From Cyprinodon diabolis (Eukaryota > Chordata > Actinopteri > Cyprinodontiformes > Cyprinodontidae), in the NCBI GenBank assembly GCA_030533445.1, contig CM060066.1:36216235-36280234 (forward strand): a stretch of DNA of 64,000 nt. The letters run 5' to 3'. Under the pieces are notes generated by a model. That model worked only from the letters and a program-made list of their open reading frames with translations. It searched no databases and was not told the origin of the DNA. Of this stretch, positions 5,881 to 51,597 are shown piece after piece. Position numbers and translations under genes: made by a program. The number at the start of each line of letters is the position of its first letter. Within the stretch, counting starts at the first letter, position 1.

Positions 5881-6105
5881 GCAAGGTTTTAGACATAGCC
5901 GGAGTGGCTCCTATCAACGAGAAGCTGCATATTATCAGCCATAAGAAACTAAAAGAAGGTAGAGGGGGCACAGTCTGGAGCCATTCTATGGGACTGATAA
6001 CCACTAATAACAGCAATTTAGTGGTTGATCACATCCAAAATGCCTGTATCTTACATACAAAGTCTAATCCCACTGTTGAACCACAGGGTTTGATATGATT
6101 TAGGC

Positions 6106-6650: not shown

Positions 6651-8547
6651 ATTGTGCAAAAACCTTGCTGTTTTGCAACCATGACAACCAGTCAGAGCTC
6701 ATAAAGATGGCAGCTAGGAGAACGGCATGATACAGGGGACAAAGCCTGGAGCTTGACACTCTAAACACAACCATAAACATTTCTTCTAAATACGGAGCCA
6801 TCCCGTTTTTCAAGGGGAGATGAGAAAGTTGATGTTGAAAAATAATAAAGCGGTAATGCTATTGAGATTGTTAGGTAGTTTTTAGAAAAGCCATTTATTT
6901 AATTTAGCCCTAGAAGGACTGTTTCATGGGCCTATTTCTAGCGCAGTTACCAGCAGTTGCCTTCTGTCCTCCATCCTCACTTCGTCTATCTGTACGCTAG
7001 GCTTCTCTGACCCCCCCACTGTCATTCTTCCACCTCCAACAGTTAGACAAGGGGTTTGCCTCGGCCAGTCGTAGCGTCTCCCCCACCTTCAGATTTCTGT
7101 TTCCTTGGCAGACTTATCAAATCTTCCAATGTGCTCCTCACCTCTCCTCTTAAGCTACCTTATTCTCCCAGTGTTCTCACACTGATTCCCCATTGGTTCT
7201 GTCTGAGCTCAGAATACAGTCTCTTTTACCTATGTTGTCTGGTTAATCACCTCTGATTTGGGCGATCTGACCAAAACAAGCTTGGAGCAAAGATACATGT
7301 GTGCTCAGAGAAAGAAACGTATCTACAACACAATAACCACTGTTTGAAATCAGTTGTCTTCATAATAACCTGCTGGTTGTCGGTGGGAGCCAATCACATG
7401 AAAATCGGCTGATTTCTGAGCACTGTCGACTGACTTCACAGATGATGAAGTTGGGTCTTATGAAGCTTAATTCACATCAGTTACAGAATCCAAAATAGAT
7501 GCATATCTGTTTTAAGGTAATGCCTCAAACACACTTCTTTTTGTGCAACATCAAAAATCCATCTACATTGAGACTGACTATGGCAGTGTGGTCTGTTTCA
7601 TTTTAAACTATGAATTACCATAAATCGCTCATAACTGTCTGATTATTTAATTTCAATGTGTAATATGCTGAATGACAACTTTCTTCTCATGCTTTAGTAA
7701 ATAAGTTTTCTATACTACTCCTTATAGAGTACTGTAACATTTTTGGCTACTCAACACACCTCTGCACATAAGCACATGCTGTTATGCAGCAGGAAGCTTG
7801 TTACTTTGCCTTTACGTAAAAAAAAAAAGAAATACAGTTTAATAACTTTTTTCTCTTTTTTAACTGTGTTCAAGGGAATAATAGCAATTCGTATGCACAC
7901 TCACACCCACCCCTCTTGCACACATATGTCTCACTTAAAAGGACCCTCAGCCTTAAAGCTTCTCCCTGAAGCCCACCTGTAATGCTTTGTCATCCATAAG
8001 CCTTAGTGTGCTGTGAGCAGATCAACACAAGTCGTTGCATCTCATGTCCCCTGCAAGTTTCCCAAAGACACTGCAGGTAAATGTCTCACTGCCATCACAT
8101 CTCATATGCATCAGAGCGATATGCTTTTTTCCTCCCGGCTATAAAAGTGTAATGATAAATTAAATTAGCTGAATTCTGGTTGACTTTTCTTTTATTGTAT
8201 TTTTAAATAAGTTTTTTTTAACAACATAATGCTTCTTAAATAGTATAATCTCCACACAGTGCTAAATCTTAGACATGAATAGAAGCAGATTGTTTGGTTC
8301 ACCAATTTTTTCTAGTTGCTACACAAGTTCTCTTCAGGGACGTGATGTTCGGTTGCAAAGAGATACTTCATCTCCTCACTGAGAGTCAAACTGATGTGAA
8401 AGAGCTTTACACGCTAGTTTGCTAGAAAAAAAAGTCATGGTCCCTGTTAGGACATCATCTCTTATCAGCCTGCATGTTTTGTTTCATTGAATTTGAAGAG
8501 TCAAGAAAATTGGGGAAAGAAATAGTTAGCTTATTGGGAACAAGTGG
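6651..8547. other. Intergenic, no gene seen
   Basis: Only short frames with no recognisable protein. Includes an A-rich run near 7810-7830. No element ends or duplications were identified. Confidence 0.45.
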
Positions 8548-8551
8548 ACAA

Positions 8552-9142
8552 CTATGACAGAGTATTAGGGTCAGGCAAGAGATTTTATTTTATTTTGAGA
8601 ATTAAGTCATAACATTGCGAGAATAAAGTTGCAATATTACGGCAATAAAGTCGTAACATTATGAGAATAAAGTTGTAATATTCTGAGATTAAAGTCGTAA
8701 CATTACAAGAATAAAGTTGCAATATTATGAGAAGGACGTTATCAAATAACAAATTGTTTCAGAGAGAAAGCTTCGAGCGCCGACCAGTATATGACGGCCA
8801 ACCAGCACCACCAAACAGCAACCTGAGTCCACTTTGACATAGTGCCCAATTTGCTGCTGGTGTGCTGACAGATTTTATTATTTGTCAAACCAGAGCCAAA
8901 GTATAACTTCATATAATGCTCCACATTCATCATTTTAGGGTAGAAAGTGCTTCTTGTAAGAAGCTTGCTTCTTGAGTTGTGATAATATACTACTTGTATC
9001 TCTCTGTGTCTTAATATAACAATTTTATTCTTGTAATTTTATGACTAGTCTCATTGTGACTTTTTTTCTCGTAATATTACGACTTTTTTCTCGAAATAGA
9101 AGAAAAAAACAACTCTAGCCTGGCACTAATACTCGGTCATAG
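8552..9142. mobile_element. 591-bp MITE with AT-rich subterminal repeats
   Basis: Left end ctatgacagagtattagg and the reverse complement of the right end ctatgaccgagtattagt pair as terminal inverted repeats, extending through a caggc(a/t)agag word. The flanks share acaa (8548-8551 and 9143-9146). Inside the left end, a unit of about 20-22 bp (aataaagt with tcgtaacatta or tgcaatatta) repeats about six times between 8600 and 8730. Inverted copies occur near 9055-9100 (tcgtaatattacgac). No coding frame is present. The superfamily is uncertain; a 4-bp duplication is short evidence. Confidence 0.6.
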
Positions 9143-9146
9143 ACAA

Positions 9147-9735
9147 CAGCTAAGTTTGTAAAACTAAAAATAAAACAGAAAGCTCTGTTAATTCAGGAAT
9201 AAGAGTAGACTGGTAGTTGAATATAAAACAAGCATACTGCACATAAATGCACTCTAAGAGTGTTCTAGAAAATTTAAATAATGGCATGAAAAAGTAAATT
9301 GATGCAAGAAATGAGAAGTAGCAGTGACAAAGTCAGCGTTGGATAAAGGACAACTTTGTGAGAAAGAGTTAAACTAACTGGAGTGAGAACTAAACTAGCT
9401 CTGAAAAGATTACAGGAAAGCTGAAAAAGCATTCATCAGCTGTACAAAGAAAAAACACCAAGAAATAAAACACACCATAAAAGAGCTTTTTTAGATCCAA
9501 TCTATCAAACATTTCTTAATTTGAGAAGAATTACTTCTTCATTAGCTCTTAGTGAGCAGATGTTTCATACAAATTCAGACAGGTATAAACAGACACATTG
9601 TTACATTCTCATATAATTTAGAAATACTGTTTTTTTTTCATATCTAGAATATTTAATTCAACTGAGACTGGATAAAATAACTGACATAATTTTTCTGGAT
9701 GCAAATCAACACAAACCAAATGTAGCCCTAAAATA
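9147..9735. other. Intergenic, no gene seen
   Basis: AT-rich, only short frames, no element ends recognised. Confidence 0.45.
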
Positions 9736-23902: not shown

Positions 23903-25335
23903 CATTAACTAGAACATACTTATTCAAAAAGCAACTCAGAGCAGTAACTATGCCAAAAAGGTGTTTTTCGCTATGTGAGCGATTAATAGTAGAAATAATT
24001 GACAGATTAATTCATGACTGCAGTGGCAGTCACTTAAAAGTGTGTTTTTCTTCTTCCAGTCTTCCTTTCTGTATAAGGGCCTCCATTTTGCTTGATAGTC
24101 AGTGACATAATTTAATAGGCAGAAACAAGATAAGTCCTGAAAGATTGTATTTAACTCTGCTTACTGTGTGTTTATCAGTTAAGAAAAGTTTAATCTGTCA
24201 GAACCCTTTTCTCCAAATCTACCTGAAAAATTAAACGTACACCAGTTCTCTCTCTTAAGGCTATGTTTTTCTATCAGTGTGTGATTCATCATTACATTCT
24301 CAAACAATTTTGCAGGGAACTACTGTATATAGCCAACAGCAAAATAAATACAACTCCTCATAATCCTCCTTTATGACCCAAAGTGTCCATATCTGTGATC
24401 TACGATGTAATGTTATGTTAACATTAAAGGCCTTCTAGCTGCTGTGGACACAATCTCCCTAGTTTGGTTTCTCTTTATTGTCAATCCTGGGTCAGCTTCT
24501 TGTTATGTTGGCTTTCTTCCCATTAGAGCTCTATGAGGTGATCCTTTTATGGACCATTTAACATGTTGTCCAGAGCTGTGGTTGACTACAACACGATAGC
24601 AGCTCTCAGTCTTCCCATTCCTTTCCTCCCTTCCTTTAAATGCCTTTTTAGCACATGCTCAGATTGCATTTTCTCCCTATCGCCCTGCCGCTCACTGTTG
24701 CTCTCCTATAGTTTACTTGACAATGCTGATTGCTTCTGTAATGCACTGAAAACATCTTTGGTGGCCTTTCAAAGCAAAGTGCTTTATGTCATGTTACTAC
24801 AGAGCCTAAATTAACTCGACTGAGCAGACATGCAGCGGTCGGCACAATTAGAGACATTAATGGGTAGCTGTTCTTGGCCAACATTTGTAGCTTGGTACTT
24901 GTGCAATGCTATGTAAAAACACTGTGGGGTACCTACTAATTGTATAATGTGCTAATTTCTGTCAGGTGGTCTGCTCTATTATATTTTCTACTGTAATGTA
25001 CAGAAACTTTGCAGATTTGATATCTGCTGTCTAGAACTAAAATCAACCAATTTTCTTGGCTGAAGTTCCAACATTTTCAGAGTTGATAACCCAATAGCAA
25101 GTTTAACAAGAAGAGATTATGGAAGGCTATAAGCTTTGCCCATAGGTACATGATTCATCCTCTTTAAAGTCATTAAGAATCAGGTCCATCAATATATTTC
25201 AAGAGGAATTACTCTTTTATCTCTCTGTTTTTATTTGACAAAACTCTCATTTATCCTAACTTACCACTTCTAAAATTACCACTTATCCTAACTTACCACT
25301 GCTAGGATTACCACTGCTGAAATCTTTTTAGCAGT
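23903..25335. other. Intergenic up to the retroviral insertion, no gene seen
   Basis: No coding frame of interest. The last bases form an imperfect hairpin: ttaccactgcta at 25,293-25,304 is the reverse complement of tagcagtggtaa ending at 25,340, exactly at the retroviral insertion point. Confidence 0.45.
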
Positions 25336-25340
25336 GGTAA

Positions 25341-25902
25341 TGTTGGATTAATTGTACATAAGTTATTCTACTTTAATCATATTATACACATTTGTTATCT
25401 CTATCTTACTTATATTACAAAGAGTGAACTTTGCTTGCTATGATTACTAATGTTTTGCTGTCAGTTTGTGCAGGAGGATGTTGATGTAACACAACTGGAG
25501 TAAAGCTGTTGAACTTTACTCATTGTAAGTTTGTGCAAGGAAGTTGCTGGGGTCAAATCTGGGTTAATGTTGTGAAACAAGGAGAGCTGCGCAGAGTTGC
25601 ACACACCGCAGAGTTGCACATCGGATGTGGAGAGAAGATTTCCTTATCTTATGATGATTGTTCGAAACTTCTGGTTTAAACTGGCTTCTGTTGACCCCCT
25701 TCCCCTTAGAGGTTGAAACCACATTGTAACCAGGGCGTTCCAAATAAAAAGCTTGGAGAGCAGAGACTGCTTCAGAGTGGGTTGGAGATTGTAACTGAAT
25801 GCAGTCTCTGATCCCCTCTCCTTGCAAGTAAATTATACTCAATTCTCTGTGTCTTTCTTTGTGCAGGTTGCTGAATAAGGTGTTTGGTGTTTAAACCTAA
25901 CA
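25341..25902 (+). repeat. ERV 5' LTR
   Basis: Runs from tgttggatta to cctaaca (TG...CA). An AATAAA(A) at 25,743-25,748 could serve as poly(A) signal or as a TATA-like element; no other clear TATA box was seen. Near the 3' end there is a pyrimidine-rich tctttctttgtgcag that would make a good splice acceptor. Side-by-side reading against the 3' LTR found no difference. Confidence 0.95.
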
Positions 25903-25908
25903 TTTAAA

Positions 25909-25926
25909 TGGTCCTTCGAGCCGGAT
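25909..25926 (+). promoter_or_regulatory. Retroviral primer-binding site, tRNA-Tyr type
   Basis: tggtccttcgagccgga, six bases after the LTR, is complementary over 17 bases to the 3' end of eukaryotic tRNA-Tyr (GUA), including the CCA end, as I recall that tRNA. Most gamma- and epsilon-type viruses I know of use Pro, Arg, Gln, His or similar primers, so the tyrosine primer helps define this lineage. Confidence 0.75.
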
Positions 25927-26622
25927 TGCAAGATACCCGACGACCCCCAGCAGGTGAGTGAGATCCAGACAAGTCTGCGGCCGCAGCAAACAGACCCTTT
26001 ACGGGACTGGTCTCTCCCTTACAAGCTGGGGTCCGACGGTTGAAGCATTTCGAGGACGCAGAGAATTGTGAGTAGTTTTTCTCTTTAATAAGGAGTGAGT
26101 GAGAACCGTGAGAGAAAAACAGCAAACAGTTTAAACCTCGTGAAGGACGGCGGTGTCCTCTATTTTTAATAGTTAAATTCCGCGTGGGGTAACGAGGTCC
26201 CCCTGTTGTACTAAAACCCTGACAATTCTAGACTCTATCAGGTAAAACAGAAATTTTAAAACAGTTAAAGTCCGCGGGAGGACAGACTCCCCTAGTTTTA
26301 AACTAGTTAAATTCTGTGTAGGATGGCGGCGTCCTCTGTGTTTAAAATAAAGAAAACGGGAATAAAGTAAAAGTTAACTGCGCAGTGTGTGTGTGTGTGT
26401 GTGTGAAAGGAAATATAGATATCACTAGATATCTGTATTTCATATGAAAAAGACAAGGGTTAAATGGTGAGCTTTTGTGGATGTTTGTAGACAAGAAAAC
26501 TCCACCTGCAAGGGTTGAAGTGAGTTTTACCACAAAGGTAGTTGATCACCATCTTGTCTGAAGCCCCAGTGTTTAGAACACGACAGGTGTTGAAAACCCA
26601 CTGGGCCCAAATTTAGTTCAAA
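25927..26622 (+). promoter_or_regulatory. ERV leader with splice donor and threefold repeat (putative packaging region)
   Basis: A strong donor cag/gtgagt lies at 25,951-25,956 and would serve the env mRNA. Downstream, a motif of the form agttaaa(t/g)tc(c/t)g(c/t)g recurs at about 26,171, 26,263 and 26,304. Each copy is near short G/C stems such as ggacggcggtgtcc and ggatggcggcgtcc. Repeated stem-loops in a retroviral leader commonly act in RNA dimerisation and packaging; that role is inferred. A short GT repeat follows at 26,386-26,404. Confidence 0.5.
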
Positions 26623-28182
26623 ATGGGAAAAGGGCAAAGTAAAGGAAAATTATGGAAGTCATTGGAAGAACTCCAGTGTAAAGATTGGAAAATAGTTGAA
26701 AATGATGACCCGGCGGCGGTAGAGCCGTTGTGTTACTGGATAAAAAATATGGTTTTAATGGTAAATTGAGCACCACAAACATAAAGGAATTGCAACAAAA
26801 AAAAAAAAAAAAAAAAAAAAAAGGCAAAAATAAAGACACCCTGATGGCCAAAGAAGGTTTTAGTCAAACAATGGTGTGGATGAAGTTAGCAGGACAGAGA
26901 GAAAAGGGAGGAGAGACAGAGAAAAGAGAAAGAAAAAGAACGTGAAGAGAAGGAAAAAGAGAAAGAAAAGTCAGTTATGTTTCATAGGAAGGAAGACAAT
27001 GAGTATGTGGGGCCTTATTCCAATCTTATGCATCAAATCCAGAATCTTCCACAAGCAGGACAGGGTGGGGGAGCTGTAGCCGGCCCCTCAGCCCCACTTC
27101 CCCACGAGGAACTACCCAAATACACCGCCCTGCAACAGGTTGACTCTTCACCTGTGATTTCATCACAGGCCTTTGACAAACCACTTACTAGATCACGTGG
27201 GTACAGACTTGAATGGACAAAGGATTTGGTGTCAGGAATTGGTAATGTACTGTCCCCACAAACCCCTAAAACACTTATTAGACAAAAAACAGATGAGGAG
27301 GAACTTTATCCTCTAATTGAACTGCCCAATCCATTAGCTGGCCAAGCCCGCCAGCCCGCCACAGTTATGGTATATAGGACCTGGACACAGAAGGATGTTA
27401 AAAAGGCAGTAGAAGGAATCCCTTCACCCAAAGAAGATGTGGAGGAGTGCATACTCCAAATGGAAAACCTTAGGAGGTCTTACCATTTAAATGGAGTTGA
27501 GGTTCAGCAGGTCTGGATGTGCCAATTAGGGCCAGAATGGCACCACGTGAAAGGCGATTTTATACCAACCACAGGTGTCGATCCTCCAGTTCCTTACCCC
27601 CCAGATTCTGACGATCTGACCACAGCAGTTGAGCGTCTGATTGCTCGTATCAGAATCAGATACCACAGAAGAGCAAATTACACAGAAATAGGAAGATGTA
27701 AGCAGAGATCCGACGAACCCTTTGATGAATACAGGGTGAGAATGGAGAAGATATTCAGAGCACATAGTGGACTTCCTTATGCAGACAATGAAGACGGGCC
27801 ATTTAAACAACAACTAAAAAATGCGCTCCATGCGGGGTCTCTGCCAGAAATTAAGGGGTGGGTCGATCGTCACCACATAGAAATGAGTGGGGGAACACTC
27901 CAAAATTATATAAATCACGCCCTGCATGCCGAGAAAGTCATAAAAAGCAAAAAGAATAACAAAGAATCCACCATGTTTTATCAGGAGGAGGAGGAGACTG
28001 TGTTTTATCAGCAGTCCAGAGGTAGAGGCCGAGGCAGAGGTCGAGGCCATGGAAGGGGAAGAGGGTTTGGATCACACTCAACCGATAATTCCAGAGCGTG
28101 TTGGTCATGTGGAAAAGAAGGCCACATGGCTAGAGACTGTCGAAGTAACCCAAAAAGAAAAAATGCAGGGAGCTCAGCATGA
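26623..28182 (+). pseudogene. gag: ERV gag, disrupted in matrix region
   Basis: The likely original start is ATG 26,623, giving MGKGQSK, a myristoylation-type N-terminus. That frame is lost at TGA 26,767-26,769; the matching sequence continues in another frame from about 26,730 (KKYGFNGKLS). A run of about 28 A residues near 26,797-26,822 follows. The original frame reopens from 26,890 with a Lys/Glu-rich tract and stays open to the end. The 401-codon frame from 26,977 contains a PSAP late-domain motif (residues 37-40), a capsid-like domain (WTQKDVKKAVEGIPSPKEDV), an RG-rich tract (about 348-365) and one zinc knuckle of CX2CX4HX4C form (C375, C378, H383, C388). It ends at TGA followed by CTAG. 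The gene product would assemble particles and bind the genome; here the matrix part is separated by frameshift and stops. Confidence 0.85.
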
Positions 28183-28451
28183 CTAGATGAGCAACCATTC
28201 TCTATTGAAGAAATAGAAGATGAAAACATGGATGTATTAAACTTGAGGATTTGATTTTTGAAGAAAAATATAGAAATAGTTCTGATGGTCCAGGGCATTC
28301 CTGTTAAATTTTGTGTGATACAGGAGCCTGCAGAACCACAATAAAAGAACCCATACCCCACGCACCTCTAAGTTCAAATTATGCAGGAAAAACTGCACCG
28401 TTAAAACTTTTTATGTATAAAGAGGAACTGAAAATGTCAGATAAACTAAAA
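28183..28451 (+). pseudogene. pol: ERV pol start: linker and truncated protease
   Basis: After the gag TGA the same frame remains open for 23 acidic codons to TGA 28,252. The aspartic protease active site appears as DTGA (DTG at 28,317-28,325) in another frame, preceded by an in-frame stop at 28,305-28,307. It is followed by CRTTIKEPIPHAPL and ends at TAG 28,452-28,454. The flap and C-terminal part of the protease are missing, because reverse transcriptase connection sequence follows at once. Confidence 0.65.
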
Positions 28452-28454
28452 TAG

Positions 28455-29201
28455 ATACCTGAAGCAGAAGCGGCCTTCTGCAACATTAAGCAGGCTATGG
28501 TGAGCAGCTGCACGTTGGCCCTGTCAGACTATGAAAAAGAGTTTGTACAAATGGTGGACTGCAAAGGTCATTTTATGACCTCAGTCTTAACTCAAATGCA
28601 TGGAAATAAATTAAGACCAGTAGCATACTATTCTACTAAATTAGATGATGTAGCATGTGCACTTCCACATTGTGTGCGAGCAGTGATAGCTGCTTCATTA
28701 GCAGTAACGTCCAGTGCTGACATAGTATTATTCCATCCACTGATATTAAAAGTTCCTCACTCGGTGTCTGCTCTGCTTTTACAAACAAAAATGACTTTTC
28801 TATCCCCAGCCAGACACCTCTCATGCATGTCTATACTCCTGTCACAGCCGCATTTAAAAATAGAACGCTGCACGGTGCTGAACCCAGCAACACTTATCCC
28901 CACGCCAGATGATGGGGAATCCCATGATTGTGAGGCTCTGGCTGAACAAACTGCTAAAAGTAGGCCAGATTTAAAAGACACTCCTTTGTCAGAAGGAGAA
29001 ACATTATTTGTTGATGGATCCTCTAAAAAAGATGAAAAAGGGAAAACGAGAATTGGTTATGCTGTAGTGACACATACCGCTGTGCTAAAAGCGGAAGCCT
29101 TACCACAACATTACTCTGCACAAGCAGCAGAACTGATTCCTCTTACTGAAACGTGCAAACTTATGAAAGACAAAAAAGTAACTATCTGGACAGATTGGTA
29201 A
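28455..29201 (+). pseudogene. pol: ERV pol: reverse transcriptase connection and partial RNase H
   Basis: The frame carries the RT thumb/connection region (CNIKQAMVSSCTLALSDYEK, LRPVAYYSTKLDDVA) and then RNase H with the first catalytic aspartate in FVDGSSKKDEKGK (about residue 173 of the frame from 28,497), the glutamate in QAAELIPLTETC and the next aspartate in IWTDW, where TAA ends it. The fingers and palm with the YXDD box are absent: only about 270 bp separate the gag stop from connection sequence, so well over 1 kb has been lost compared with a normal pol. RNase H is cut before its last motif. No polymerase can be made. Confidence 0.8.
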
Positions 29202-29821
29202 ACTAAACATATACAACCTATGGTTTAATGCTTATTCAAAAAATTTTTGTAGAGCATGCTTAATATGTGCAAAGTACAATGCTCAGGGGAACCTAAGGCC
29301 TAAAAGAGGACAATTCCCAAAACCAAACTACCCCTTTCAACACATACATATGGATTTTATTGAACTAAATCCAAGCGAAGGTAAAAAATTCTGTTTAGTC
29401 ATAATAGATTTGTTTTTTAAATGGATTGAACTATTTCCAATAAAAAACCCTGATGCCCTTACAGTAGCAAAAGCACTCTGTAAAGATATAATACCAAGAT
29501 ATGGCATTCCAGAGAGAATATATAGTGAGAATGATTCTTACTTTGTTAATTAAATAGTGTCCAAAATAGGATTAGCCTTCCACATTGATTTAAAAAATCA
29601 TTGTGGATATCATCCACAGAGCGCAGGACTTGTGGAATGAATAAATTGTACTGTTAAAAACAGACTAAGAAAGACCATGGAAGAAACATTGGTATTCACC
29701 TAAGTGGGAAGGACCCTATCAGGTTTTGTTGACCACTCCAACTGCATTGAAAATAGCTGAAAGAAGCACATGGATCCACTTGTCACACTGTAAAAAGGTG
29801 ATAGATAGATCAGATGATTAA
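29182..29821 (+). pseudogene. pol: ERV pol: integrase pieces
   Basis: An open frame to TAA 29,551-29,553 begins with the Cys part of the HHCC zinc domain (CRACLICAKY; the His part is deleted). It continues with core-domain blocks HMDFIEL and IIDLFFKWIELFP (first Asp) and RYGIPERIYSEND (second Asp). After the stop the same frame shows HPQSAGLVE with the catalytic Glu, then TGA and later TAA. In another frame, 29,705-29,818 carries the C-terminal GPY-type module ([17 protein letters not shown]). The linker before this module is deleted. Integrase is not expressible as one protein. Confidence 0.8.
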
Positions 29822-29833
29822 TGGATAAAATCA

Positions 29834-29853
29834 CTCTCCTAATTATTCTGTAG
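29834..29853 (+). promoter_or_regulatory. Putative env splice acceptor
   Basis: The pyrimidine-rich tctcctaattattctgtag lies just after the integrase remnant and about 240 bases before the env signal-peptide ATG. It is the best acceptor-like site in this interval to pair with the leader donor at 25,953/25,954. Inferred only. Confidence 0.35.
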
Positions 29854-30094
29854 AACCTTACTATAGTGTTTAGCATTCTAGTAATCCTACTGTGGTACCT
29901 GTTATAGAATACACATTTGGTCTCCTTCACCGACCTTCAGAGGAAGTCCATCGTACAAAGGGGGTTGTATTTTTAGTATACAACCGTCTCAAACTGGTGA
30001 AGATTGTCCACAACTCTGCCGAAAGGTCATAGGAAGTAGACCATTGTGTAAAAAGATTACCCACAGGAAACTTTTTGAAGTTTGAACCTAGATA

Positions 30095-30217
30095 ATGTTG
30101 CGACTACTCATATTAGTTTTGTCTTTAGCTCTCACTCAGGGCAAGGATTCTTGTTGCCCTCATGATCCAGCTATTTGTAAAAGGACGTCTATCTCTGCTA
30201 TAACTCTACTAGACTAA
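30095..30217 (+). pseudogene. env: ERV env signal-peptide segment, out of frame with the rest
   Basis: ATG 30,095 opens a 40-codon frame starting MLRLLILVLSLALTQG, a typical secretory signal, followed by CCPHDPAICK, and stops at TAA 30,215-30,217. The surface-subunit frame is open from 30,181 in a different phase. A frameshift between about 30,181 and 30,215 therefore separates the signal from the mature protein. Confidence 0.7.
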
Positions 30218-31989
30218 TCAGTGTAGTGACTATTCCTTTTCAAACATTCTCGCAAAGATTCAAAATTGACCCAGGAGTCTGGCGAGGTTATGATTTCTAC
30301 CTATATCCCCGTGTAGTTCAAAAAACTCAAAAGAGTTGGGGAGACGTTTTTAGAACCACTGAACAGTGGAAGAAAGGATCATATGGATGGACATCTTTAG
30401 CTAAGAAATGGATGAGTAGAATATCAGGGTTCACTGTTAACCATGACTCCAAAGTTTTCACTATGACGATAAACTCCACAGCAGAACCCTTTGAGAAGGA
30501 AGGCTGTTCTTCCTCATTTATATGTGCGCGGTCTGCTGGAACTGATCCATGTTGGACATTGTATTTGTGCCCCGCAAATATTACACAAGAAGGAGATGAG
30601 ATACAAGGGATTCTTACTTCTGCCCAAGGAAAACAGATAAAAATTCAAAATATTAATGGCCTGCTTAAAACAGATGAATTGTTTCAAGTCACCACTGGAA
30701 TCTCTGGACAAACAAACAACTGGCTCTTAATGGCAGAACAAGCAGCTAAAACAGTGTCCAATGATTGTCTTGTGTGTATGGGAGCCAGACCGCTGTTACG
30801 CGTGGTTCCTGCTACTATAACTCCACAATGTCTTCTAAACATCATGAATTATACAGTCCCAACTGATAATTGCACCTATTGGGATAAGATCTATCCCCTG
30901 ACCATAGATGAGAAGAAAAAACCAATCTTTTTGAAAAAAGTAGCTGTGGCAAATTTCACCTGTGTAAACAGGACCGGAGTGGGCCCGAAACTAGGCACAC
31001 TAAATGAAACACAATGTGCAAGCATTTTACTGGTATCCATCTTTTTTCAACCTCAATCCCGCAGTGACATCTGGTGGTGGTGTGGAGATGACAGATTGTT
31101 TGACAGACTTCCATACAACACCACTGGATTGTGTGCTGCGGTCACTTTGATTTTACCTGTTTCTATTACATCACTCACAATGGATGAATTGTTAACGACT
31201 ATAAACAGCATTTTACCTCACACAGGGCATACTAGAAGGAAGAGGGCATCTGAAAACGCATGGAGTGGAGATGACCCTACTTATATTGACAGCATTGGGG
31301 TACCCAGAGGTGTTCCAGATGAGTATAAACTAGCGAATCAAGTTACTGCAGGATTTGAATCTATCTTATGCTGGTGGTGCACTATAAACAAAAATGTAGA
31401 CAGAATAAATTACATCCACTATAATGTCCAGAGGCTGGGAAATAAAACAGAACAAGGCTTCTCCGCTGTTCATGAACAATTGTCAGCTACCTCTCTGATG
31501 GCTTTCCAGAACCGTATTGCTGTTGACATGTTGTTAGCTGAAAAAGGTGGTGTGTGCTCTATTTTTGGAGATCAGTGTTGCACCTTTATTCCCAACAACA
31601 CCGCTGCTGATGGCAGCCTCACAAAGGCCCTTGAAGGCCTTCGGTCTCTTAACAGCAAAATGAAAGACCATTCTGGAGTTGACACAAAATTGTGGGACGG
31701 ATTTGGAGACATTTTTGGTAAATACAAACAATTGGTAGTTTCTATTTTAATGTCTATAGCTGTATTTGCCGCCATCCTGACCTTATGTGGATGTTGTTGT
31801 ATTCCATGTATTAGAGCGCTGCTAAATAGACTAATTACCACAGCAATACAACCCATGAAAACAGAAATGTATGCCCTCATGTCCACTGAGGAACACCCAT
31901 TGGATGATGCAGACAGTGAAGAGGATGAAACCTCTTTACACTTTCCTGGTCTTTATCCTAATCCCAACGACAATAACCCACCGGTTTAA
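30181..31989 (+). CDS. env: ERV envelope glycoprotein, SU-TM frame (lacks in-frame signal peptide)
   Basis: A frame open from 30,181 to TAA 31,989; the 587-codon count below starts at a GTG at 30,226, since there is no upstream in-frame ATG with a signal. SU contains many N-X-S/T sites and CLVC (a CXXC motif). A furin site RRKR occupies residues 337-340 (31,234-31,245). TM contains a CWWC, the region FQNRIAVDMLLAEKGG at the position of the immunosuppressive segment, and CX6CC at C444, C451 and C452, the gamma-type motif for disulfide linkage to SU. It ends with one membrane span (about residues 503-529, Cys-rich at the inner edge) and a tail of about 58 residues. Family role: receptor binding and membrane fusion. 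The frame has no internal stop, unlike gag and pol, but without a signal peptide it would not enter the secretory route. Confidence 0.88.
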   Translation, partial: KDVYLCYNSTRLISVVTIPFQTFSQRFKIDPGVWRGYDFYLYPRVVQKTQKSWGDVFRTTEQWKKGSYGWTSLAKKWMSRISGFTVNHDSKVFTMTINSTAEPFEKEGCSSSFICARSAGTDPCWTLYLCPANITQEGDEIQGILTSAQGKQIKIQNINGLLKTDELFQVTTGISGQTNNWLLMAEQAAKTVSNDCLVCMGARPLLRVVPATITPQCLLNIMNYTVPTDNCTYWDKIYPLTIDEKKKPIFLKKVAVANFTCVNRTGVGPKLGTLNETQCASILLVSIFFQPQSRSDIWWWCGDDRLFDRLPYNTTGLCAAVTLILPVSITSLTMDELLTTINSILPHTGHTRRKRASENAWSGDDPTYIDSIGVPRGVPDEYKLANQVTAGFESILCWWCTINKNVDRINYIHYNVQRLGNKTEQGFSAVHEQLSATSLMAFQNRIAVDMLLAEKGGVCSIFGDQCCTFIPNNTAADGSLTKALEGLRSLNSKMKDHSGVDTKLWDGFGDIFGKYKQLVVSILMSIAVFAAILTLCGCCCIPCIRALLNRLITTAIQPMKTEMYALMSTEEHPLDDADSEEDETSLHFPGLYPNPNDNNPPV

Positions 31990-32095
31990 AGTACCTCTGA
32001 GTGTACCCTTTTACAGCTAAAAATGATTTCATAGTTGAAAATCTGAAAAGAAGTAACTATTGAATGATAAAAAAAATAGCTTAAAGTGAATAAAC

Positions 32096-32105
32096 AGGAG
32101 GGAAA
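32096..32105 (+). promoter_or_regulatory. Polypurine tract
   Basis: aggagggaaa directly abuts the 3' LTR, the usual primer site for plus-strand DNA synthesis in retroviruses. Confidence 0.8.
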
Positions 32106-32667
32106 TGTTGGATTAATTGTACATAAGTTATTCTACTTTAATCATATTATACACATTTGTTATCTCTATCTTACTTATATTACAAAGAGTGAACTTTGCT
32201 TGCTATGATTACTAATGTTTTGCTGTCAGTTTGTGCAGGAGGATGTTGATGTAACACAACTGGAGTAAAGCTGTTGAACTTTACTCATTGTAAGTTTGTG
32301 CAAGGAAGTTGCTGGGGTCAAATCTGGGTTAATGTTGTGAAACAAGGAGAGCTGCGCAGAGTTGCACACACCGCAGAGTTGCACATCGGATGTGGAGAGA
32401 AGATTTCCTTATCTTATGATGATTGTTCGAAACTTCTGGTTTAAACTGGCTTCTGTTGACCCCCTTCCCCTTAGAGGTTGAAACCACATTGTAACCAGGG
32501 CGTTCCAAATAAAAAGCTTGGAGAGCAGAGACTGCTTCAGAGTGGGTTGGAGATTGTAACTGAATGCAGTCTCTGATCCCCTCTCCTTGCAAGTAAATTA
32601 TACTCAATTCTCTGTGTCTTTCTTTGTGCAGGTTGCTGAATAAGGTGTTTGGTGTTTAAACCTAACA
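32106..32667 (+). repeat. ERV 3' LTR
   Basis: The same 562-bp sequence as the 5' LTR, shifted by 6,765 bp, with AATAAA(A) at 32,508-32,513. It ends cctaaca, followed by the target duplication ggtaa. Confidence 0.95.
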
Positions 32668-32672
32668 GGTAA

Positions 32673-49188: not shown

Positions 49189-50934
49189 TTATTTGAAAGG
49201 CAGAATCCCAGGTGTCCGGCCGAGGGACCGGCAGCGAGGCAGAGTCTCAGGTGGCCGGCTGCGGGGCCGGCAGAGGGGCAGAGTATCAGGAGGCCGGCCG
49301 CGGGGCCGGAGGCGAGGCAGACTCTCTGGAGGCCGGCCGCGGGACCGGAGGCGAGGCAGACGCTCTGGAGGCCGGCCGTGGGTCAGGTGACGTAGGTGGG
49401 TTCTAGGAGGATGACATCTCCGTTTCTGCTGACTCTTTGGCGAAGGACGACGTCTCAGCCGCCGTTGCACCTCAGGAGGAGGACGACGCCCCAGTTTTAA
49501 CAGGAAGCCCCAAGGGGAACGCCGTCACCTCTTCAGCGGCTCAGCAACAGTCTCAGAGGGGGCCGCGGACTGCGGCTCAGAAACAGGTCCAGAGGTGGCT
49601 GCCGACTGCGGCTCAGGAACAGCCTCTGAGATAACCGCCGACTGCGGCTCCAGATCAGGAACAGAGGAGCCCGCCGATTGCGGCTCCAGATCAGGAACAG
49701 AGGAGCCCGCCGATTGCGGCACCGGGTCAGGAACAGAGGAGCCCGCCGATTACGGCTCCGGGTCAGGAACAGAGGAGCCCGCCGATTACGGCTCCGGGTC
49801 AGGAACAGAGGAGCCCGCCGATTACGGCTCCGGGTCAGGAACAGAGGAGCCCGCCGAATGGGGCTCCGGGTCAGGAACAGAAACCACCGACTGTGGTTCC
49901 GAATCAGGAACGGAGAAGACCACCGGCTGTGGCCCCGAATCAGGAACGAAGGAGACCACTGACTGTGGTCCCGAATCAGGAACAGAGGAGACCACCGAAT
50001 GTGGCTCCAAATAAGGAACAAAGGAGACCACCGACTGTGGCTCCAAATTCAGCATGGAGGAAACCGCCCACAGAGGCAAAAGTTCAGTCTCAGAGGTGGC
50101 TTGTGATGCTCGTAGAGGACTCTTGGCGGTCTGGAGCGCCTGCAGAGAGGTCCTAGGAGGCGTAAAACCACATACCTCGAATTCAGACACCTCTTTAAGG
50201 TTCTGCTCAGGGGTCTCTGGACGGCACAGCGCTAAATCAGGGGTCTCTGGACGGCACGGAGCAAACTTAGAGGTCTCTGGACGGTACGGAGCTAACTTAG
50301 GGGTCTCTGGACGGCACAAAGCTAACTCGGGGGTCTCTAGATGGCAAAAAGCTAACTCAGGGGTCTTTAGACGGCTCAGAACCGGCTCAGGGGTCTTTAG
50401 ACGGCTCAGAACGGGCTTATGGCGACGCCGTCTCTTACGTCGGGGTTCTTTAGAAGCTGGGCTAATGGGTTCACAGACTGACTGTGGCAAAAGGCTAACT
50501 GGTGTGCAAGTGGGTTCAGGTGCAGGTTTAGCGAAAATGCTAACGGGCTCAGGAGTAGGACTAATTGGTTCATTATGAGGTGACAAGAAGGGGAAAAGAT
50601 CATCTCTATCCCCGTAGAAGAAGTTCCAGAGGTCTGACTCATGGATTACGGGAGCTCTGACTGTTTGGGTTGTGACTTGTGGTCTGATTTTGAGTTTCCT
50701 AATGGAGGGTGCTAACTGACGATCATGTAAGTGGTGGTTGAAACTGACCTGGCGTAGAGACGGACTGAACAAGGCTGTACAGAGCTGTACTGGGCAGGAC
50801 TGAGCTGGACTGGGCTGGACTGGACTAGGCTGAACTGGGTTAGACTGGGCTGAGCTGGGTTGAACTGGATTCCTAGATCTGGGCTTAGCTCTGGCTCGTA
50901 GTCTGTGATCTTGATATACTGTAAGGCTATACAA
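49189..50934 (-). CDS. Repeat-rich tail of the gypsy gag/unknown ORF
   Basis: A minus-strand frame of 370 codons (50,934-49,822) follows gag, starting in the capsid end and running into tandem repeats. First come about nine copies of a 30-bp unit encoding variants of RPETPELALC (50,190-50,440), then about eleven copies of a 36-bp unit encoding variants of SVPDPEPQSAGS (49,630-50,050). Lower down (49,200-49,390) a GC-rich unit of about 39 bp repeats 4-5 times. The protein is proline-rich and probably disordered. Its function is unknown; expanded repeats and several overlapping frames make real translation uncertain beyond the first part. Confidence 0.45.
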
Positions 50935-51597
50935 ATGAGCTCTTCCAGGGTTGCAGGTTCATCTATTGTTGCAAGTTTGTTTCTGATTTCTTTATTTAAT
51001 GCGTTTTTGTAGATGTTCTTTAGCATGACATCACTCCAGCCAGAAGCTGCGGCTCTGACCTGGAATTCTATCGAAAACTCCTCTACGGTTTTATTTCCTT
51101 GTGTGAATTCATTTAGAAATTGATCTAAGGTGTAGGTTATACTAGATTCAGGAGGAAAATGAGTCTCTTTCAACTCGCGGGCTTTACCGCTTTAACTGTG
51201 AGAGGATAAACACTATCTTACTCTCGTCGTCAGGGAAACAGGTTGGATTGAGTTCAAAGAACAATTTACATTGCAACAGAAAACCTTTGCAATCACTAGA
51301 AAAACCAGAAAACAGTGAGGGACGGAAAGCAGGAAGTGACGGAACGGATTCTGACCTTAAAAGCGGAACTGGCTCCGCAAGTGACGGAACGGGCTCCGGA
51401 ACCGGAAGTTGAGCTGGCGTCGCGTTAGCGTTTCTTACGTTGCCTGCTAATTCCTGAAAAGTTTCTTTTTTAAGCTCCAAACATGTGTTTAACTCACGGA
51501 GGGTTGAATCGTATCCTTGGATCTTAGTAGCTTGTTCCTCAAGCCTCCTCCGGAGGTGATCTGCTGGGTTTTGTGAATGGCCGGAGTGTTCTGTCAT
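50712..51597 (-). pseudogene. gag: Gypsy gag, N-terminal and central part, frameshifted
   Basis: The first frame (51,597-51,184) starts MTEHSGHSQNPADHLRR with its ATG inside the last bases of the LTR. It continues through a coiled-coil-like segment to FSSDCKGFLLQCKLFFEL and FPDDESKIVFILSQLK, the conserved start of the fish Ty3/gypsy (sushi-like, also PEG10/RTL-related) capsid, then stops. A second frame (51,173-50,712) resumes with YTLDQFLNEFTQGNKTVEEF and AASGWSDVMLKNIYKNAL, the later part of the same capsid. A short deletion and frameshift at about 51,174-51,184 separates them. Expected role: particle assembly. No zinc knuckle was seen. Confidence 0.7.

Follow-up and report, generated by a model that had tools for sequence, protein, structure and literature searches.

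The locus examined here raises a question of dating, as an endogenous retrovirus (ERV) of Cyprinodon diabolis has identical long terminal repeats (LTRs) around an interior that is broken in gag, pol, and env. The window, meaning the whole stretch of 64,000 nucleotides that was analyzed, is C5:36216235-36280234 in a 1.22-Gb draft assembly of 936 contigs, and the provirus lies on its plus strand at 25341-32667. A preliminary description of the window proposed that a defective genome had been copied and integrated with enzymes supplied by a relative. Comparison with other copies in the same genome makes it very probable that the locus is a recent insertion of an already broken, non-autonomous class I provirus, assigned here to a family named D, which was supplied in trans and template-switched to a full-length family named F. 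The paradox is solved in that LTR identity dates the copying event and interior decay dates the lineage; these are different events, and the two should therefore be kept apart when proviruses are dated.

The Insertion and Its Lesions

The LTRs (25341-25902 and 32106-32667) were identical to each other, with 100% identity over 562 bp relative to the 5' LTR. In a self-BLAST 566 of 567 aligned bases were equal, and the sole mismatch was located in the five bases preceding the LTRs. The target-site duplication GGTAA is perfect and is found at 25336-25340 and 32668-32672, so that both terminal features were as first described. A presumed primer binding site begins six bases past the 5' LTR (25909-25926, plus strand) and presumably resembles tRNA-Tyr; a polypurine tract, AGGAGGGAAA, lies at 32096-32105 on the same strand. 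Both were assigned from sequence only, the latter by position and composition. A short tandem repeat (36-bp match, 88.9%) is present at 25248-25315, immediately left of the insertion site.

The interior was read against one full-length F copy of 9,745 bp on C15, handled as two halves (L020 and L021), and reference positions below refer to this copy. Relative to it, the pol of the window lacks approximately 1,631, 469, and 288 bp. The junctions were mapped to 28375-28381 (reference 3052/4684, a 7-bp overlap of two matches), 29193-29195 (5504/5974, a 3-bp overlap), and 29680-29687 (6469/6758, an 8-bp overlap), in agreement with the earlier count of at least three large deletions. The first junction removes the protease, a CNPase-like domain, and the first part of the reverse transcriptase (RT). 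An open reading frame (ORF) with the remnant of the RT connection and RNase H is found at 28455-29201, and an integrase remnant ORF, with a Pfam rve match slightly below the cut-off, at 29182-29553. The D-type leader and broken gag extend over 25927-28381 and include an open gag remnant with one CCHC zinc knuckle (26890-28182). This gag has one 1-base and one 26-base deletion. The frame change reported there is real; the stops reported with it are a consequence of the frame changes and not independent lesions, since no independent nonsense codon was counted when gag was read in the frame of F. The env leader is out of frame as described, due to a 1-base deletion that has now been located, and beyond the leader env is open for 602 codons from stop to stop (30181-31989, with a TLV_coat match). 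All of these features are on the plus strand.

The Same Lesions at Unlinked Sites

Family D comprises short, deleted copies. The first comparison included the window and nine other short copies against the F reference, and was directed at the internal deletion junctions, for which a search of the same genome had been suggested. The junction 3052/4684 was common to all ten. The second junction, either 5504/5974 or an extended form, 5504/6102, was found in nine (the exception is C14a), and the third, 6469/6758 or 6455/6755, in eight, with F-like sequence in its place in C13 and C4. An env deletion (7755/8164 or 7761/8261) was present in 8/10 and absent from the window and C13. Two further D copies, C17 and C2, have the env deletion together with the first and third junctions; where the second junction would lie, the deletion is smaller in C17 and absent in C2. 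The 1-base and 26-base gag lesions of the window recur in 8/11 and 11/11 other D copies, and its env-leader lesion in 5/11. Counting stops and frame-changing indels in gag, env, and the RNase H piece, no lesion was private to the window. A 170-bp query over the first pol junction returned 194 first-look candidates, of which 40 were scored (window included), all at 99-100%.

D copies at different sites have different 5-bp duplications and flanks unrelated to each other. The occurrence of identical lesions at unlinked sites implies that the genome was broken before it was last copied, and the proposal that a defective genome had been copied is thereby borne out. Two other explanations were weighed against these data. 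The deletions might have arisen in the last round of reverse transcription, when the packaged genome was still intact; in favor of this, the two matches overlap by 7, 3, and 8 bp at the pol junctions, and template jumps leave such overlaps. The recurrence of the same junctions and of the small gag lesions at many unlinked sites refutes this for the lesions of the window, and the explanation is extremely improbable. Multiplication of one broken locus by segmental duplication or assembly artefact might be suspected because the assembly is a draft in 936 contigs and one sampled copy, C659, is on a 62-kb contig inside a repeat. This too is extremely unlikely, as separate 5-bp duplications were found in 10/10 copies with the U3 (unique 3') region of F and in 9/9 readable sampled D copies, with unmatched flanks.

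Age of the Insertions

A second set of ten D copies was sampled by junction, without regard to the LTRs. LTR pairs were identical in all nine readable copies, each with a 5-bp duplication, and the tenth was incomplete. Among the ten short copies with the U3 of F, which had been picked by LTR identity, nine had no LTR difference and one had a single difference, and perfect, separate duplications were present in every one. Five F copies were read at both ends; their LTRs differed at no position in four and at two positions in one, and the duplications were perfect in 4/5, the fifth being offset by one base in the cut used. Low LTR divergence and individual target-site duplications characterize the copies compared. 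At a fish rate of 1.46e-8 per site per year (PMC8672886, in part), zero differences in 562 bp would correspond to an upper limit of about 0.18 million years, allowing 3 expected changes (own arithmetic). Identical LTRs alone are not rare, given that 248 of 890 zebrafish ERVs have them (PMC8672886, in part).

Two U3 Types and a Mosaic Provirus

The U3 of F is carried by the window and at least ten other short copies. In the sample picked by junction, 8/9 complete LTR pairs had a U3 unlike that of the window. The differences amount to 17-21 substitutions and 78-95 gap columns and are concentrated almost entirely in the first part of the LTR. In the remaining pair the U3 is of the window's type, with one gap. 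The LTR type of the window is that of the full-length family, as are 1.6 kb of its env, and not the usual one of D, a point that goes beyond the earlier account. When a 155-bp query from the D-type U3 was used, 404 candidates were returned, and the 40 that were scored formed 19 pairs 5.75-6.78 kb apart and two singles, with no pair spaced near 9.18 kb. A 77-bp query with the window's U3 returned 150 candidates, and the 40 that were scored all matched at 100%. The LTR pairs of the ten short copies were 5.7-7.1 kb apart; among six full-length copies the spacing was approximately 9.18 kb in five and 10.4 kb in the sixth.

Three observations concern individual matches. In the sixth full-length copy (C8:17660673-17671667) the LTR starts are 10,433 bp apart, about 1.25 kb above the others, and the unread 3' half likely contains an insertion. 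The D-type match at C9:26700898-26701052 is a lone one, 1.7 kb from a D LTR pair, and is possibly a solo LTR or a nested insertion. On C4, three F-type U3 matches (52479670, 52486169, and 52492668) are spaced by exactly 6,499 bp and resemble two tandem proviruses with a shared LTR, likely the result of unequal crossing-over.

The window is mostly D-like up to approximately 30362. Its segment 30491-32667, which includes the 3' LTR, was compared with the F copy on C21 and showed zero differences in 2,177 bp. Identity with F thus extends 1,615 bp past the 3' LTR into env, and does not extend past the 5' LTR. Since this 3' part came from F, the window is without the env deletion of most D copies. 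Diagnostic sites, defined by a difference between two F copies and two D copies, served to map the crossovers. In the ten short copies with the U3 of F, the last change from D to F was located in seven different intervals of the reference: 7440-7613 (the window, where it corresponds to 30362-30535), 8503-8722, 8722-8854 (two copies), 8854-8988, 9027-9028, 9075-9151, and 9151-9230 (three copies). All ten had the F state at 17/17 diagnostic sites in the LTR, and all ten were D-type at bases 600-699, directly behind the primer site.

Reverse transcription copies both U3 regions from the 3' end of the RNA, and a single 3' crossover consequently yields two identical foreign LTRs. D copies have probably captured the promoter of F in this way, through template switching. 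The several crossovers may alternatively go back to one early capture, after which D copies exchanged sequence with each other; recombination is needed under either history. Gene conversion, either between the two LTRs of an old, decayed provirus or between these and an F copy, would also produce identical LTRs of F type at both ends, and a single locus would be compatible with it. It is nevertheless very unlikely, as D copies with either type of U3 as a rule have identical LTR pairs, the identity with F continues past the 3' LTR and not past the 5' LTR, and none of the lesions counted is private to the window.

The Candidate Helper Family

A query from the pol stretch that is absent in D returned 33 candidates, all of which were scored. 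Of these, 11 matched at 99-100% (family F) and eight at 88-89% (family G); single copies matched at 96% and at 80%, and the rest at 65-76%. F has gag at 1269-2843 followed by TGA, a protease frame of 315 codons followed by TGA, RT and RNase H followed by TGA, an integrase of 339 codons, and an env of 632 codons. In the F copy on C15 the in-frame UGA codons are at reference positions 2844, 3792, and 5877, and separate gag, protease with the CNPase-like domain, RT-RNase H, and integrase. Among the F copies read, full-length open frames were found for gag in 5/6, protease in 6/6, integrase in 5/5, and env in 5/5. The window and F have a TLV_coat-type envelope, and an F copy has an MLV-type integrase C-terminus and an MLV-like RT connection and RNase H (MLV, murine leukaemia virus); by these features F and D are class I (gamma/epsilon-like) retroviruses.

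The genome contains relatives that share the LTR of the window and are open in gag, protease, integrase, and env; F has matching cis signals as well, its internal UGA codons qualifying its competence. This supports one part of the claim that enzymes came from a relative; the supply itself is what we infer. A source of the enzymes in family G, or in a relative that is exogenous or unsampled, is unlikely. The pol of G is at 88-89% of that of F, and the first 190-200 bp of the D leader are nearer to G (96.5%) than to F (88.7%), both of which would fit such a source. Against it, the LTRs of the one G copy that was handled as two halves differ by 16 substitutions and 14 gap columns, both RT and env of this copy contain in-frame stops, and the captured U3 is that of F.

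Three Conserved UGA Codons

The gag TGA was present in 11/11 F copies, the 96% copy, and 7/7 alignable G copies (the G copy on C4 and the 80% copy were not alignable). The TGA between protease and RT was present in 11/11 F copies, the 96% copy, and 8/8 G copies, the 80% copy having a sense codon. The TGA between RNase H and integrase, placed with the aid of the nearest solved integrases and RNases H, was found in 9/9 readable F copies (two F copies and the 80% copy were unreadable), the 96% copy, 8/8 G copies, and D copies C2, C14a, and C17. Six distant copies in the genome are 56-60% alike in RT and, where aligned, 30-34% in the C-terminal part of the protease. Five of these have the TGA between protease and RT, and the sixth, L073, is much decayed and shows none in the frame read; three of the five are decaying too, as each has one further stop in the stretch read.

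The frames behind these codons evolve under purifying selection. The ratio of nonsynonymous to synonymous divergence (dN/dS) between F and one G copy was 0.039 for the protease ORF (dS 1.24), 0.143 and 0.097 for the two parts of RT-RNase H, and 0.087 for the integrase, so that frames behind the UGAs fall at 0.04-0.14; comparison with four other G copies placed the protease ORF at 0.040-0.050. Two pieces of gag gave 0.10 and 0.14, and env gave 0.26. The G sequence used here is interrupted by a single stop in the first part of RT and by two stops in env. In the 96% copy the protease ORF has one stop and gave 0.41 on 22 changes. Protease codons 31-300 show high silent divergence between F and G and almost no amino-acid change, with similar flanks, and this block is probably due to an older recombination between lineages. 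As the high silent divergence is confined to it, the dS of 1.24 does not apply at the stops.

Proteins of other species were compared at the same borders. Most of the relatives that carry a name come from fish, which points to a teleost host. The protein search admitted only sequences of 0.55-1.75 times the query length, and fused proteins are therefore under-counted. Of 45 relatives of the protease ORF, 39 with 29-72% identity terminate where its stop lies (positions 308-325 relative to 315), one continues into RT, and five were off criterion, P0160 among them projecting to 312. For the RT-RNase H piece 250 relatives were found and the best 120 examined. The integrase border was judgeable in 41 of these: 17 terminate at it, with 46-99% identity, and 24 continue past it, with 38-67% identity. 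Another 13 stop short, and 66 are unaligned. At the RT start, 13 of the best 120 begin at the border, 34 have a later start, 50 extend upstream (at most 64% identity, apart from a single odd model at 77%), and 23 are unaligned. Relatives of the protease, RT-RNase H, and integrase each occur on a sequence of 8,642 bases, presumably one contig. The split of pol thus seems to belong to the nearer kin of F and not to fish retroviruses at large. In the viral and genome contigs searched, no DNA of these relatives was confirmed from which the border codons could be read.

Nested readthrough of the three UGA codons is the likeliest reading for F: in-frame stops are kept in relatives, with open frames and purifying selection behind them. 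Each UGA would be passed by a minority of ribosomes, giving Gag, then Gag extended by protease and the CNPase-like phosphodiesterase, then by RT-RNase H, and then by integrase, which would be the rarest product. That the pol UGAs are not read through, with re-initiation, another RNA, or a defective F lineage in place of readthrough, is a serious though less favored possibility. It would accord with the 13 RT relatives at the border, which start with Met (gene callers favor Met), with the 24 of 41 judgeable relatives that pass from RNase H to integrase with no stop, and with the sense codon of the 80% copy. Predicted RNA structure after the stops is also weak (z of -1.6, -2.1, and -2.1, compared with -2.1 and -1.2 for two upstream controls and -1.0 after gag in G), the prediction being blind to pseudoknots. 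On the other side stand the selection acting on all segments behind the stops, the UGA kept at the protease-RT border in five of six distant copies, and the finding that, for the second and third stops, neither F nor G has an AUG in frame with the stop at a distance of up to 60 nt. The first in-frame Met in F is residue 100 of the RT ORF and residue 30 of the integrase ORF, and re-initiation at AUG appears less likely.

On balance it is somewhat probable that a fish clade issues Gag-Pol in four steps through three conserved UGAs, and that a deleted family has repeatedly captured its U3. The three UGA codons of F are the most surprising and the least proven part of this analysis. If the readthrough interpretation is true, one retroviral frame grades four products with three readthroughs, and the balance of protease, RT, and integrase becomes directly testable.

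The CNPase-like Domain

The 2H phosphoesterase fold was obtained on the predicted model of a relative, P0121, and not of F itself (VIA). In this domain H199 is invariant, and T201, H258, and S260 occur in at least 90% of 34 relatives. Pfam support was weak, with Acb1 matched in 2/34 relatives (best E 0.0012). All 50 PDB matches listed by Foldseek were proteases, and the phosphodiesterase match consequently rests on VIA.

Proposed History

The enzymes for D would have been supplied in trans, most likely by F. RNAs of D and F would have been co-packaged, and in the same or an earlier round a template switch inside env, from D RNA to F RNA, would have brought in F sequence from the 3' part of env through the polypurine tract to the U3, upon which both LTRs would become F-type and identical around a D interior. 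Several points weigh against this history. The competence of F depends on a putative recoding, as its pol is split by two internal UGA codons and preceded by the UGA after gag. The window has F states at two diagnostic sites near reference 7128-7139 and few differences from F at 5974-6073, and because of these extra patches it is not a simple two-part mosaic and more than one exchange is required. Candidate numbers are first-look counts and not confirmed copies. Finally, the first ten short copies with the U3 of F were chosen for LTR identity, and their U3 type is by selection; the sample picked by junction is free of this.

F and D are a likely helper-parasite pair, with 11 near-identical pol-bearing copies compared with 194 first-look deletion candidates. 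On these counts D likely outnumbers its probable helper and has taken the helper's promoter in some of its copies. As both U3 types exist side by side, promoter capture can be traced copy by copy.

Other Features of the Window

A weak Ty3 capsid match (E 1.5e-5, under the Pfam cut-off) was found at 50715-51191 on the minus strand. It is located among long minus-strand ORFs at 48.9-51.6 kb and probably belongs to another LTR element.

Comparison with Known Systems

Three in-frame stops in gag-pol were not described in the parts of PMC2684134, PMC8278194, PMC3835772, and PMC2657110 covered by a literature search that lay outside most subscription journals, and the parts of PMC6001957 and PMC12642411 (a foamy-like virus) had no bearing on in-frame stops. 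A gag stop is read through in MLV and feline leukaemia virus (FeLV), walleye dermal sarcoma virus, snakehead retrovirus, and XtERV-S (PMC2657110, PMC3835772, and PMC8278194, each in part). The in-frame stop between gag and pol is common to these viruses and F, and in XtERV-S it is also TGA; in those parts of the sources one stop is described, whereas F has two more inside pol.

Among class I fish retroviruses, epsilon-like ERVs with a CNPase ORF share with F the class I env, the MLV-type integrase C-terminus, and the CNPase-like domain. Such fish ERVs are already in print, in a review (PMC4977317, in part) that cites Basta et al. 2009; in-frame stops between protease, RT, and integrase are not described in that part of the review. 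Compared with CNPase, a 2H phosphoesterase, the domain of F has 14-17% identity, is fused behind a viral protease, and has a predicted function.

A literature query on helper-dependent recombinants returned none. MusD and ETn of mouse and the defective recombinant koala retroviruses provide the pattern of a deleted, high-copy family that a coding family mobilises in trans, the LTRs being shared or exchanged between the two. D differs from these in that it retains pieces of all genes, both U3 types coexist, and the exchange points vary between copies. A trans-mobilised defective provirus is, in this comparison, an ordinary kind of element in an unusually clear setting.

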